In this document: positions 11,620-16,407 of the stretch, piece by piece
Position numbering within the stretch: position 1 is the first letter of the stretch
Layout: every line of letters begins with the position of its first letter
NCBI GenBank assembly: GCA_018499965.2
Contig: JAHBAS020000005.1
Coordinates: 1 to 54,471, forward strand
Source of the DNA: Candidatus Uhrbacteria bacterium
Lineage (GTDB): Bacteria; Patescibacteriota; Patescibacteriia; 2-12-FULL-60-25
Length of the DNA stretch: 54,471 bases
Direction of reading: 5' to 3'
Position numbers and translations under genes: made by a program
The notes under the pieces: model-generated
What the model was told of the DNA's origin: nothing
The model's database searches: none
The model's input: only the letters and a program-made list of their open reading frames with translations

Positions 11620-12306
11620 ATGCACACACTTCTTATCGTTGAGGATCAGGAAGACATCCGTGATTCTCTCCAATCTCAATTTGTTTTAGAAGGTTATAGC
11701 GTTGATACAGCCTCTGACGGCCGTGAGGCGGTTGGAAAAATCAAGAAACGTGAATATGACTGCGTCGTCATGGATTACGTGATGCCTCGTATGGACGGAA
11801 AGGAGGCCTGTAAAGAGGTTCGTGAATCAGGTATTTGCGTGCCCATCATCATGCTCTCGGTCAAATCTGAACCGTTAACGAAGGCCGAGCTATTGGATTG
11901 TGGCGCAGATGACTATCTTGGCAAACCGTTTTCCAGCGAAGAGCTTTTAGCTCGTATTCGAGCACTTCTTCGTCGACCGAAAGCATTGAAAAGCGATGTT
12001 TTAAACGTGGGTGATTTAATGATGGATGTGAAAGCGCATAAGGTTTCCGTTCAGGGAAAACCGATTTATCTCACGCGCAAAGAGTTCTCTCTTCTCGAGT
12101 GTCTTCTTCGGCATAAGGGTTCAGCCGTTTCCCGTGAACGTCTTGTTACGGATGTGTGGGGCGGAGCTGTTGGTGTGCATTCCAATACCATCGAGTCTCA
12201 TATTTTGAGTTTACGTAAAAAGATCGATCATCAGCGAGCGCATGGGCGATTGATTCATACGATGCCAGGGGTTGGGTATCGCGTTGATGCGCTGGTAGTG
12301 GAATAG
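11620..12306 (+). CDS. OmpR/PhoB-type response regulator
   Basis: The 228-aa protein has a receiver domain (residues 1-~118) with acidic residues E8/D9, phospho-acceptor Asp52 (CVVMDYVMP), Ser80 and Lys102 (YLGKPF). The C-terminal winged-helix domain (~128-225) ends in the typical VRTVWGVGY-like segment, here MPGVGYRVD. It is a DNA-binding transcription factor controlled by phosphorylation. The partner is very likely the histidine kinase 322 bp downstream on the same strand, although a terminator-like palindrome separates them. Confidence 0.9.
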   Translation: MHTLLIVEDQEDIRDSLQSQFVLEGYSVDTASDGREAVGKIKKREYDCVVMDYVMPRMDGKEACKEVRESGICVPIIMLSVKSEPLTKAELLDCGADDYLGKPFSSEELLARIRALLRRPKALKSDVLNVGDLMMDVKAHKVSVQGKPIYLTRKEFSLLECLLRHKGSAVSRERLVTDVWGGAVGVHSNTIESHILSLRKKIDHQRAHGRLIHTMPGVGYRVDALVVE

Positions 12307-12325
12307 GTTGAAATCGTAGAGATAC

Positions 12326-12357
12326 AAAGAAAAAATGAAATATTTCATTTTTTCTTT
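12326..12357 (+). terminator. Perfect 32-bp palindrome after the response regulator
   Basis: A 16-bp arm (AAAGAAAAAATGAAAT) and its exact complement abut with no loop, 20 bp after the response-regulator stop. The T-rich right arm can act as a terminator tail. The perfect symmetry without a loop would also suit a DNA-binding site. Confidence 0.55.
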
Positions 12358-12616
12358 ATCTACAGGCTTTATCATTTCTTTATCCTTGGCGGGCCACATT
12401 AAAGGTCTACCCATTTTCCTGGTCAGAAAATGTCGGAGGGGCGTTGTACGGCTCATGCCTCATTGACGGAGGTATGGGAATGGTTTACAACGTTAATCAT
12501 TCATCTCTATGCAGAACGTTCTCAAGGCCGTTCTCACGAGCAAGGCTTCTCGCTCTACGGCTGGTGTGTTGGCTGTAGGCATTGTCGCCTTACCTTGGGC
12601 GTAGTGTGCGTGGCGC

Positions 12617-12622
12617 TATTCT
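12617..12622 (+). promoter_or_regulatory. -10 box of the histidine kinase gene
   Basis: TATTCT ends 6 nt before the ATG at 12629, with a weak TTGGGC 16 nt upstream. This supports the first ATG as start and a separate, leaderless kinase transcript. Apart from the palindrome and a 31-codon frame (12509-12604), nothing else is seen in 12307-12628. Confidence 0.45.
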
Positions 12623-12628
12623 TTTCGT

Positions 12629-14044
12629 ATGTCTTTTGCATGGTCTTTGTTACAGAATGGCGCCATCGCATTGCGCCGTATGTATATTGATGCCCGTTCG
12701 ACGAATGAAGATGATCGACGTCAGGAACATCTTGCCAATATCCTTTTGGTGAGTTTGATCGTCGTGACGGCGGTGATGGGTATGGTTGCCGCATGGCAGG
12801 CGATGGTCGCCCATTCGTCATATTCAGGCGTTCATCCGGCTTCCGTGGGTTTATGGTGCGCTTGGTATGGTCTCCTGTTATGGGTATCGCGACGTGGTCG
12901 TATCCGAACGGCGATCGCCGGATTGCTTATTTCGTTGTACCTCCCCACGGTGATCGTCATGGTTCGATACGGTGTCACGGTTCCGGAGCTCGTATTGCTG
13001 CTCGCCTTACTTGTGACGATTAGCAGCGTGCTTGTTGCGACGCGATTTTCTTTCCTTGTGACGGGCATTGTCAGCGTGACGATGTTGACGGTTTATTTTT
13101 TGCAGAGCCGAGGGGTTTTTGTGCCGGAATACGATTGGCGCACGGAGCCGATGTTCGTGGTTTCTGATATCGTTCCACTCGTCGTAACCTTGTTCGCGAT
13201 CGCGATCGTGGCATGGCTTTCGAATAGGGAAACGGAGCGGTCCTTGATTCGCGCCAGAGCGTCTGAAGCGGCATTGAAAAAAGAACGTGATTCGCTTGAA
13301 GAGAAGGTAGAAGAACGGACGCGAGCCTTGAAGCAGGCGCAGATGGATCAAATCGGGCAGCTCTACCGATTCGCGGAATTCGGAAAAATGGCCTCTGGGC
13401 ATTTTCATGATCTCGCGAATCCACTGACTGCGGTTTCGTTGAGCCTGGATCAATTGTCCAAAGAGAGTGGGGAGTGCCTCCTTCCGGTACGGGAGCATCT
13501 TGATCGGGCTATGAGCGCCGCAAAGCGCATGGAGGGGTATATCGGAGCGGTTCGAAAGCAATTACAGCAGCATGAAGTCGTTGCGCTCTTCCATCCTGCG
13601 GAAGAAATAAGGGATATCGTGAATGTTTTGGGGTATAAGGCGAGAAAAGCGCATGTGCAGGTGCGATTAAAATTAGATGACCGGATAACGATCAAGGGAA
13701 ATCTGTTAAAATTTGGCCAGATCGTGATGAACGTTATGAGTAATGCTATTGATGCCTACGAAGGGATAGAGCGAAAGGGCACGAGGGATGTCATCGTCTC
13801 GCTGGAGCGAGAAAAGCAAACCATATATATGACCATTCGGGATCATGGATGCGGTATTCCCGAAGGAGATCTTTCAAAGATTTTTCAACCGTTTTTTACA
13901 ACAAAACGAGAACAGGGATTGGGAATCGGATTGGCAACGGTATCTGATATCGTAAAGAAAGATTTTGGCGGGTCTATGCAGGTACAAAGCGTCGTTGGTC
14001 AGGGGAGTACGTTTACCATTTCTTTGCCCGAGGCGAATACTTGA
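12629..14044 (+). CDS. Membrane sensor histidine kinase
   Basis: The 471-aa protein has five to six membrane helices in the first ~195 residues and no large extracellular domain. A coiled coil (~200-235, KKERDSLEEKVEERTRALKQ) connects to the dimerisation domain with phospho-acceptor His260 (GHFHDLANPLTAV). An ATPase domain follows with N-box NVMSNAIDAY, G1 DHGCGIPEG and G2 GLGIGLATV. It would autophosphorylate and pass phosphate to the neighbouring response regulator. Short loops suggest that it senses a signal within the membrane. The terpenoid-fold gene starts 4 nt after the stop, so the two are cotranscribed. Confidence 0.85.
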   Translation: MSFAWSLLQNGAIALRRMYIDARSTNEDDRRQEHLANILLVSLIVVTAVMGMVAAWQAMVAHSSYSGVHPASVGLWCAWYGLLLWVSRRGRIRTAIAGLLISLYLPTVIVMVRYGVTVPELVLLLALLVTISSVLVATRFSFLVTGIVSVTMLTVYFLQSRGVFVPEYDWRTEPMFVVSDIVPLVVTLFAIAIVAWLSNRETERSLIRARASEAALKKERDSLEEKVEERTRALKQAQMDQIGQLYRFAEFGKMASGHFHDLANPLTAVSLSLDQLSKESGECLLPVREHLDRAMSAAKRMEGYIGAVRKQLQQHEVVALFHPAEEIRDIVNVLGYKARKAHVQVRLKLDDRITIKGNLLKFGQIVMNVMSNAIDAYEGIERKGTRDVIVSLEREKQTIYMTIRDHGCGIPEGDLSKIFQPFFTTKREQGLGIGLATVSDIVKKDFGGSMQVQSVVGQGSTFTISLPEANT

Positions 14045-14048
14045 TTGC

Positions 14049-15500
14049 ATGACGTCTTTTGAAGTGCGAAAAAGAGAGCAAGACGCTCTCATAGCAGGCG
14101 TGTCTTCGTCTATTTTTTCTGTGAGGTCTGGAGCGTTTCCGCTTGAGGGGCTTTTTCGATCTCTCGCATACGTTGCGGATCGGGATCCTGATCTGATGCA
14201 GTCGGAATGGGTGGCTGCTGCTGCATGGATTTTGACGCAATGTGAAGTTGGAGAAGGTGGGCCATACCGATCCCGAATCGGCAGCCAGGATGAGCCTGAT
14301 CTTGAGACGAATGTTCAAATCGCTCGGTTTTTACGTACGCAGGACATTGTTCTCAATCCTCTAAATGAGTGGTTGGCAAAACAGGGAGTTTTTGTGTTGC
14401 AGGAGAAAAAAAGATATGATCATCAAAATGATTCATTAAAGAAAACGGATAAGGCTCATGTTGAGTATCATCATGATTCTTATATCGTTCCGCTGATTCA
14501 ACGAAGGATGAGTCTTGTTGGCGAATCGTTGCGATTGGATGTCGAGGATGAATTACAGGCGATGTTCGGACGTGATCAGCGTGGGGAAAAGACGCGTCTT
14601 CCCCTTTTCTTTTTTAAGGGAATTGATCCGTCGATCATTTCCGTTTCTCCGGAAGTCGTTCGAATGCTCTGCGTTGCGCATACGTACGGATGGATGGCTT
14701 ATACGGTTTTGGATCGTTATCTCGACGAAGATCATGGCGCGCATACCTTATCGATGGTGCCATTCTGCCTGCGTGAGATGATGGGTATTTATCAAGCGCT
14801 CGGACCGGCCGTGGCTGCATATGCGCGGAATACGCTTGATCGCTGCGATGTTGCGAACGCACACGAGCTTCAGTGCTGTCGTCTCATTCACGCTCTGGGT
14901 GGAGCATATGAACTTCCCGAGTTCCTTCCGAGCGCATTTTATCAAGGGCCGGAGCTTGCCGAACGTTCGCTTGGACATCTCATTGGTTGCGTATCGATAT
15001 TTCTTCGATCTGGAGTCGCTACGAACCATCCGTTCGTCCAGGCGACGGAGTCTTTTTTTACGAGGGTGATCTGTGCAAAGCAGCTTTGTGATGATATTGA
15101 AGACTGGTGGGAGGACCTTTGTCATGGCCATCTCAATGCCGTGGGATGCGAAGTGATTCGGACCTGGCAATCCGTGACGCATCATCCTGACTTTTCAATA
15201 GAGCGCGATGAATTGCCGTTGCGGAATGTTATGTTAGAATCCGTGCTCGAAAACATGATTCACGCCGTGCGCGTGCATGCGGATGAGGCCTCGGTTGCCC
15301 TTGGGAAAATGACATTTTTATCTGATGCGACGTTTTGCCGGAACATGATCGACGTGTATCGCCAAACGGCTAATCACTTGGAGCGTCAGTTGAAGGAGCG
15401 AAGAGCTTTTTTACAGGAGTTCGGACCAAATAGCGTCGACGGTCTATCGTCTACGGCTGACGGGATCGATTCTCTCCGACCGTTAGCCGTCGACCGTTAG
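14049..15500 (+). CDS. Putative isoprenoid-synthase/terpenoid-cyclase-like protein
   Basis: The 483-aa protein is all-helical by inspection. The N-terminal part (residues ~15-105) contains AAAWILTQCEVGEGGPYRSR followed by DLETNVQIARFLRTQ, which resembles a prenyltransferase/squalene-cyclase QW-type repeat. The C-terminal part has two Asp-rich helices in the order of class I isoprenoid synthases: VLDRYLDEDHG and KQLCDDIEDWWEDL. I know similar CPR hypothetical proteins; none has an assigned reaction. The first motif is altered compared with a full DDxxD. The ATG at 14049, 4 nt after the kinase stop, is preferred to the upstream overlapping start. The last codons fall in the repeat at 15435-15522. 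Confidence 0.55.
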   Translation: MTSFEVRKREQDALIAGVSSSIFSVRSGAFPLEGLFRSLAYVADRDPDLMQSEWVAAAAWILTQCEVGEGGPYRSRIGSQDEPDLETNVQIARFLRTQDIVLNPLNEWLAKQGVFVLQEKKRYDHQNDSLKKTDKAHVEYHHDSYIVPLIQRRMSLVGESLRLDVEDELQAMFGRDQRGEKTRLPLFFFKGIDPSIISVSPEVVRMLCVAHTYGWMAYTVLDRYLDEDHGAHTLSMVPFCLREMMGIYQALGPAVAAYARNTLDRCDVANAHELQCCRLIHALGGAYELPEFLPSAFYQGPELAERSLGHLIGCVSIFLRSGVATNHPFVQATESFFTRVICAKQLCDDIEDWWEDLCHGHLNAVGCEVIRTWQSVTHHPDFSIERDELPLRNVMLESVLENMIHAVRVHADEASVALGKMTFLSDATFCRNMIDVYRQTANHLERQLKERRAFLQEFGPNSVDGLSSTADGIDSLRPLAVDR

Positions 15501-15522
15501 CCGTCGACCGTTAGTCGTCGAC
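15435..15522. repeat. GTCGAC-rich direct and inverted repeats at convergent gene ends
   Basis: Three tandem 14-bp units CGTTAGCCGTCGAC (15481-15494, 15495-15508, and 15509-15522 with one change) follow an inverted relative, GTCTACGGCTGACGG, at 15450-15464. They span the stop codons of both convergent genes (15500 plus, 15511 minus) and encode their C-terminal residues. GGCTGACGG can pair with CCGTTAGCC to form a hairpin that may terminate both transcripts. Confidence 0.75.
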
Positions 15523-16407
15523 CGACGGTGCATTCCCCGTTGGTTTCATCTGGACATTCGTCGCAAGAGGATAGCTGTCTTTGGTGATATTCGGATAGTT
15601 CAAACGTACGGGTTTGTATCCCGCTTTTTGAAGCGTCATGTAATACGATCCGCGGTTTACGAGAAAAGCGTATCGTCCCTTTGGAGAGGTGATTTGCGTA
15701 TTGAGGACTTTATTGAATTGCGCATCAAATAATCGAATGACGACACGCGTGATCGGTTCTCCGGATTTGGCGTCTTTCACGGTTCCATACGCGGGTTTTC
15801 CTGGTTGGAACGTGACGATGCGCCAGAGTGTGATAAGGACAAAGACGGCGTAGATCAGCCATGGGATGAGTGGTTTTTTTGAGGCTAGGGGATAGATCGT
15901 CGCAAAGACCGGACTCGCATAGGCGATGGCGAGTTGGGCATTGTCGCTCAGGACGATCCATCGACGAAAGACTTTTGAACGCGTGGACATGCCTTCCACT
16001 GGATCGATCGGGATGTTCTTGGTAATGATGCCGTAGTCCTTGATTTTAATGCGGCTCGACGAAAGGACATTGTCATACATCTTGCTGCGTCGATGCTGCT
16101 TTAAAAAGAACGATGGAAAAACGTATCCCGGCTTTAGCACGTCGACGACGTACTCGCCTGGAGCGGCCGTGAGGCGATAGTGGCCATAGGCGTCCGTGAC
16201 CGCAGAGGCGACCGTGAGACCATGGGTATCGACTAATCGGATGCGTGCGAGGTCTACCGGTTTACCGTTGACGCTATGGAAGATCGTGCCGTATCCGGAA
16301 CGGTGGCGTTTGAATTTTGCGTAGACCTCACCCGTCATCGCGAGAAGCGTGCCAAGGATACCGGCGAATAGCGTCGGCTGGAGGAAGGGCGTGAGGATGT
16401 GAGGCAT
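15511..16407 (-). CDS. Membrane protein with two carboxypeptidase-regulatory-like domains
   Basis: The 298-aa protein has an N-terminal hydrophobic segment (~8-28) and a beta-sandwich domain of CarboxypepD_reg type (residues ~38-105: GKPVDLARIRLVD, TDAYGHYRLTAAPGEYVVDV). Membrane segments lie around residues 150-200, and a second similar domain covers ~205-290 (GTVKDAKSGEPITRVVIRLFD, GRYAFLVNRGSYYMTLQKAG). Such domains usually act as structural modules in surface proteins. The C-terminal residues SVDD come from the repeat shared with the convergent neighbour. Specific function unknown. Confidence 0.7.
   Translation of the reverse strand: MPHILTPFLQPTLFAGILGTLLAMTGEVYAKFKRHRSGYGTIFHSVNGKPVDLARIRLVDTHGLTVASAVTDAYGHYRLTAAPGEYVVDVLKPGYVFPSFFLKQHRRSKMYDNVLSSSRIKIKDYGIITKNIPIDPVEGMSTRSKVFRRWIVLSDNAQLAIAYASPVFATIYPLASKKPLIPWLIYAVFVLITLWRIVTFQPGKPAYGTVKDAKSGEPITRVVIRLFDAQFNKVLNTQITSPKGRYAFLVNRGSYYMTLQKAGYKPVRLNYPNITKDSYPLATNVQMKPTGNAPSVDD

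Follow-up and report, generated by a model that had tools for sequence, protein, structure and literature searches.

The ComQXPA system of Bacillus subtilis is composed of four adjacent genes, i.e., an isoprenyl transferase, a short tryptophan-containing peptide, a membrane kinase, and a response regulator (PMC4008528). ComQXPA-like loci were found in Firmicutes only in a 2014 census (PMC4008528). All characterized trans-IDS-like peptide prenyltransferases, i.e., ComQ, PalQ, and ChrPC, modify tryptophan (PMC13290415; also PMC10853753, PMC5331326). In PalQ, the region of the second Asp motif (SARM) is thought to be used for Trp recognition (PMC10853753), and in ChrPC a Trp-prenylating P domain is joined to a chain-cyclizing C domain (PMC13290415).

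No paper combining "ComX" and "Patescibacteria" was found in the literature searched, which does not include closed-access papers and preprints. The cells of Patescibacteria are reduced, mostly host-dependent, and thought to have few regulators. To our knowledge, no such cell-to-cell signaling system is known in these tiny parasitic bacteria.

The window, i.e., the whole stretch of 54,471 nucleotides that was analyzed, belongs to a Candidatus Uhrbacteria bacterium, and the host had rightly been taken for a CPR bacterium in the original prediction. A four-gene set in this window is, with good probability, an autoinducing prenylated-peptide signaling cassette, RR-X-HK-Q, that works like ComQXPA of Bacillus.

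Cassette layout, distribution, and the peptide family

The four-gene set spans 11620-15500, and all genes lie on the forward strand in the order A-X-P-Q.

11620..12306, forward strand: response regulator, ComA-equivalent, with receiver and OmpR/PhoB-type winged helix (Response_reg 8.5e-30, Trans_reg_C 1.9e-24)
12509..12604, forward strand: peptide gene X, 31 aa, MQNVLKAVLTSKASRSTAGVLAVGIVALPWA, Trp at residue 30, conserved ORF family, proposed pre-pheromone
12629..14044, forward strand: membrane histidine kinase, 471 aa, proposed pheromone receptor (ComP-equivalent)
14049..15500, forward strand: Q, 483 aa, rudimentary N-terminal toroid and class I core, proposed peptide-tryptophan prenyltransferase, short form

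In the kinase, HATPase_c (8e-23) was recognized together with weak HisKA (2e-4) and weak 6TM_PilS (3e-4) matches, and five hydrophobic TM-like segments were found. The original prediction had described a kinase gene followed 4 nt later by the gene of a 483-aa protein, and the positions agree, i.e., the kinase stop is at 14044, the ATG of Q at 14049, and its end at 15500. The stretches quoted for that protein, i.e., GGPYRS...DLETNVQIARFL, LDRYLDEDHG, and CDDIEDWWEDL, are each present in the Q translation. The two upstream genes, response regulator and peptide X, were not part of the prediction; both belong to the same conserved cassette.

The kinase-Q pair, whose conservation had been left for checking, was found in about 70 homologous loci, where the start of Q mostly overlaps or abuts the kinase stop. 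Q and kinase distances were also correlated (Mantel r 0.63, 0/999 permutations), and both results argue for a coupling beyond chance. Homologs of the response regulator adjoin the cassette in most loci. The regulator gene sits before the kinase and, in a few loci, after Q. In one locus (L033), the cassette takes a two-gene form, in which X and Q overlap directly without an intervening kinase; Q is thereby indicated as the partner of X. A RadC-cluster gene was found near the cassette in four loci, and in the Pfam-checked L126 it lies directly after Q. Separately, an Rfam LOOT RNA family match (81 bits) was observed at L060:15923-16040.

A search of close relatives, covering 57 genomes, gave Q in the window's own genome only, so the phylum was sampled instead. 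Because Q is absent from the 56 relatives of the same genus, family, or class (0/56), the cassette is patchy. The phylum sample contained approximately 16 clear Q homologs with 19-27% identity. With the Q profile at E<=1e-3, 22 of 380 Patescibacteria genomes, i.e., about 5%, were hit, a few of them weakly. A pattern scan of GTDB species genomes, using a subset alignment of the Q family, gave 80 loci. All lineage-named records among these were CPR/Patescibacteria, and a few were titled just "bacterium". The lineages include Saccharibacteria, Nomurabacteria, Moraniibacteriota, Colwellbacteria, Levyibacteriota, Taylorbacteria, Berkelbacteria, Doudnabacteria, CPR2, and others.

A short ORF was found upstream of the kinase in each locus examined, and fifteen of these peptides align as MxxLLxxxLTxKxAR......PWx. 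A profile built from the 15 peptides was searched against the 42,172 six-frame ORFs of the 80 CPR loci. It gave 67 matches at E<=0.01, and the kinase follows directly after every one of them (67/67, none elsewhere); 58 of the matches are in loci outside the training set. Where the profile found no match, the contig ends close to the kinase or the Q start, apart from a few weak loci. In the weak loci L053, L092, L112, and L121, a Trp-ending ORF still occupies the place of X.

Trp is located 1-7 residues from the C-terminus in all 72 collected peptides and is preceded by Pro in 57. These peptides are 31-40 aa long, except for two with uncertain starts. GGAGG-type ribosome sites were found at many X genes, and the X gene of the window has no obvious ribosome-binding site. 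Six X peptides were searched in Pfam, and none matched the ComX family PF05952 at E<=10. A different reading frame contains an 86-aa ORF at 12430-12690 that overlaps X; it was rejected, as relatives showed no counterpart to it.

Candidate operator repeats and candidate target genes

Two elements were recognized between the response regulator gene and X.

12354..12384, forward strand: CTTTATC in three copies, spaced 13 and 11 bp, upstream of X, candidate operator of the response regulator
12412..12432, forward strand: possible hairpin CATTTTC-CTGGTCA-GAAAATG, corresponding to the hairpin with a GGTCGA loop found upstream of the peptide in relatives

In the intergenic regions between regulator and peptide genes, direct repeats with CTTTATC-type units peak at 11 bp (55 pairs vs approximately 8 at other spacings) and peak again at 22 bp. 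Direct repeats of 11 bp are the usual pattern of OmpR/PhoB-type regulator sites. The CTTTATC pair occurs at only one other place as an exact pair in the 1.1-Mb genome of the window, and the controls gave 0.

The hairpin of the window, taken alone, is not significant (z -0.46). In many lineages of the relatives, the peptide start is preceded, mostly by 25-59 nt, by a hairpin that has GGTCGA (or AGTCGA) in the loop and differing stem sequences (L050, L060, L065, L087, L101, L116, L117, and others). GGTCGA was present in 20 of 43 long intergenic regions, where 0.6 were expected. Covariation was not shown on the automatic alignment, and no such Rfam family was found in the loci scanned. The element may be part of the 5' UTR or an operator.

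Sites matching the operator pattern CTTTAWN5CTTTAWC were searched genome-wide, with the reversed pattern as control. The Taylorbacteria genome G426 (cassette locus L078) has 6 exact sites vs 0 for the control, and 23 vs 3 when one mismatch is allowed. The operator stands 39 bp ahead of the ComEC (Competence 1.3e-48), ComM (Mg_chelatase 1.2e-88), and RadC start codons, with distances of 33 bp to a ComF-like phosphoribosyltransferase and 47 bp to a small gene preceding recA. It is also found upstream of the peptide X gene. Other sites in this genome were observed at an IS200-like (Y1_Tnp) transposase-type protein, an Ada-metal-binding-like membrane protein, a receiver-only protein, and an 86-aa membrane protein (L159, L170, L173, L142).

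In 16 cassette genomes, with <=2 mismatches allowed, the operator was found at -36 to -42 in 8 of 28 comEC/comM genes vs 12 of 969 other genes (Fisher 1.3e-8, the related genomes not being independent). One of the eight (L188) is possibly an internal coding match. Within one family, the operator is at comEC in both testable cassette carriers, the third carrier (G442) being cut at a contig end; 2 of the 15 cassette-less genomes of the same family with a comEC locus have it. Apparent operators in G431, G439, and G434 were discarded because they fall within the reading frame of comEC. The recurrence of the direct repeats before comEC, comM, radC, comF, and recA in some genomes suggests competence control. 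Judging from these sites, we lean towards a regulator that would control competence in the lineages with the operator at com genes.

In the window's genome, no operator was found at comEC or comM, and the one-mismatch count equals the control (7 vs 7). A one-mismatch site on contig C15 was rejected as a comEC promoter; it sits downstream of the Competence domain of comEC, not upstream. A near-identical operator (G000:C13:3954-3971, L157) is followed after 39 bp by a start in an ORF of approximately 309 codons. The sole other exact site (G000:C31:49790-49807, L130, L131) is approximately 125 bp before a Rhodanese-domain membrane protein. This ORF and the rhodanese-like gene, the latter with a single site, are candidate targets.

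The repeats and their neighbors also bear on another explanation of the peptide. X could be a prenylated antimicrobial RiPP, i.e., a bacteriocin, with the two-component system merely regulating its production or sensing damage, and Trp-prenylated RiPPs from related enzymes do exist (PalQ, ChrPC). However, the genes for peptide, kinase, and regulator occur linked at almost every locus, no dedicated gene for immunity or export is found repeatedly beside the cassette in the homologous loci, and the candidate regulon consists of competence genes, which makes a bacteriocin improbable.

Predicted fold and motifs of Q

The two Asp motifs of Q were located as follows.

14712..14732, forward strand: first Asp motif (FARM), residues 222-228, D R Y L D E D; D222 in 66/67 and D226 in 67/67 homologs
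15081..15116, forward strand: second Asp motif (SARM), residues 345-356, Q L C D D I E D W W E D; conservation assessed in 67 homologs

A class I isoprenoid-synthase core had been proposed for the 483-aa protein. This is supported by the AlphaFold2 model (pLDDT 88.3, pTM 0.84) of the window Q, for which the best Foldseek matches were prenyl-diphosphate synthases with probability 1.00 and target TM mostly 0.55-0.72. The Asp motifs are also kept among homologs, i.e., the SARM aspartates D348, D349, D352, and D356 are invariant in 67/67, as are Q345 and, in the class I domain, E273. The first motif had been called incomplete, and R at position 223, where 50 of 67 homologs have D, agrees with this. 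However, that Q may bind and not catalyze is less likely, since D222 and D226 are conserved. The Gln upstream of the second motif (Q345, 67/67) is likewise invariant in 10 neighboring polyprenyl synthases, and it has therefore no power to discriminate Trp prenyltransferases.

The window Q alone gave nothing useful in Pfam or NCBIfam and nothing relevant in PDB. Against PF00348, one weak match (0.07) was found among 17 Q members and none at 0.05 in set A4. By hhalign profile comparison, Q and polyprenyl synthases matched weakly, in the SARM region only.

The original prediction had combined the class I core with a squalene-cyclase-like N-terminal part. This holds for the family, whose full-length relatives have a class II/squalene-cyclase-like N-domain; in the window Q, the toroid is rudimentary and the DxDD class II motif is absent. 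In the predicted structure of a full-length relative (652 aa, pLDDT 93.4), one part resembles drimenol synthase and squalene-hopene cyclases and the other part prenyl-diphosphate synthases. The profile of the long-form N-domain reaches drimenol synthase at E 5e-18. Pfam families of squalene-hopene-cyclase, prenyltransferase-toroid, and terpene-synthase were hit by some of the 67 Q members, and DxDD followed by T, S, A, or I was found in the N-domain of 47/67. With no DxDD in its sequence, the window form probably prenylates without cyclization. A 14-bp tandem repeat, CGACCGTTAGCCGT, with 3.4 copies (window 15477-15524), runs across the end of the Q gene, which thereby gains a disordered tail (residues ~465-483, pLDDT <50) that is absent from relatives.

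In 12 of 80 loci (L052, L061, L068, L072, L077, L085, L090, L098, L102, L108, L051, and L074), the cassette contains or adjoins a polyprenyl-diphosphate synthase gene (PF00348). For example, this gene separates the regulator gene from the peptide gene in L102, and it comes right behind Q in L052, L061, L072, and L077. Two tested synthases matched PF00348 with 9.5e-59 and 3.5e-57. Such an adjoining enzyme would supply the prenyl donor. The window's genome has one polyprenyl-diphosphate synthase, which is away from the cassette.

The peptide PRENYLTRANSFERASE reading of Q is suggested by the Trp modification common to trans-IDS-like prenyltransferases and by the ChrPC-like plan of the long Q. 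The conserved peptide with Trp in its C-terminal region points the same way. By this analysis, Q is most likely a peptide-tryptophan prenyltransferase maturing a pheromone for the kinase. The terpenoid enzyme itself had been proposed as the signal input, which was not supported here; the conserved Trp-bearing peptide X favors pheromone maturation.

A prenylated X might also stay anchored in the membrane and act on the kinase of its own cell as a lipidated ligand or inhibitor, i.e., self-sensing with no cell-to-cell signal. Neither an exporter nor a protease for X was identified; the lack of an exporter is in keeping with self-sensing, and the conserved N-terminal half of X (MxxLLxxxLTDKxAR) could be functional and not a leader. 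But such a half is equally expected of a leader recognized by Q, and modified ComX, the closest analog, is secreted; self-sensing is improbable. Highly improbable is the earlier view that Q is a small-molecule terpene synthase, whose product the kinase senses or whose use it controls, with the peptide an unrelated regulator: the class I core with a class II-like domain and the kinase-Q coupling would fit, but the X gene is in every testable locus and joined directly to Q without a kinase in L033, and the invariant Trp would be left unexplained.

Proposed mechanism and comparison with known systems

In the prenylated-peptide signaling cassette, X would be a 31-aa pre-pheromone, and Q, a trans-prenyl-synthase-like enzyme, would attach an isoprenoid to the Trp near its C-terminus. 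In full-length relatives, the class II cyclase domain may also cyclize the prenyl chain, as its DxDDT motif suggests. The modified X would then be trimmed and leave the cell. The membrane kinase would detect the processed X and phosphorylate the OmpR-type regulator, which is predicted from the sequence to bind the 11-bp direct repeats upstream of X and so to give positive feedback. The regulator would also turn on target genes. One output is probably natural competence in some lineages, because the same operator precedes comEC, comM, radC, comF, and the recA operon there.

If this is true, about 5% of sampled Patescibacteria genomes would have a dedicated cell-to-cell signaling system. Cell-to-cell communication would be linked to DNA uptake, which gives a testable answer to how uptake is switched on. 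The enzyme family would probably make peptide-terpenoid hybrids, of biotechnological use. The fullest version, i.e., a new quorum-sensing class, patchy in Patescibacteria, in which a two-domain enzyme puts a cyclized terpenoid on the peptide Trp and so switches on competence, is put forward tentatively and has less than even chances in our judgment.

The cassette shares with ComQXPA its set of four adjacent genes, the autoinducing logic, and a likely competence link. In both, Trp is near the peptide C-terminus, i.e., in the last 5-10 residues in Bacillus and 1-7 residues from the end here. However, the gene order differs, being A-X-P-Q here, and the CPR peptides of 31-40 aa have a different leader and no ComX family (PF05952) match. 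The ComQXPA kinase is of the HisKA_3 type (PF07730), whereas a weak HisKA (PF00512) with HATPase_c was found here. The regulator is LuxR-type (PF00196) in ComQXPA and OmpR/PhoB-type (Trans_reg_C, PF00486) in the cassette. The ComQXPA enzyme belongs to the PF00348 family, whereas the enzyme here is likened to it in fold by modeled structure only, and is 430-680 aa long with an extra domain. Because the peptide, kinase, and regulator families all differ, the locus is not filed as a ComQXPA member; the cassette is outside the ComQXPA family proper.

The N-domain fold and the DxDDT of the long Q are those of drimenol synthase (PDB 9mhs, 9m7d) and squalene-hopene cyclases. In contrast to drimenol synthase, Q has no HAD phosphatase, and the domain is fused to a prenyl-synthase-like domain and degenerate in the window protein. 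PalQ of Paenibacillus alvei, a C-terminal Trp prenyltransferase (PMC10853753), is also an isoprene-synthase-fold enzyme that acts on the terminal Trp of a peptide, PalX. PalX, a RiPP with an NHLP leader, is encoded in a RiPP gene cluster, whereas the genes here go with a two-component system. PalQ requires Trp as the last residue, whereas 1-7 residues follow Trp here.

With ChrPC (PMC13290415), the long Q shares the plan of a trans-IDS-like domain and a terpene-cyclase domain with DxDDT. Unlike ChrPC, Q is tied to a two-component system, and the window Q has no DxDD. What the trans-IDS-like Trp prenyltransferases, i.e., ComQ, PalQ, and the P domain of ChrPC, have in common with Q is the isoprenoid-synthase fold, as predicted by the model, with FARM.
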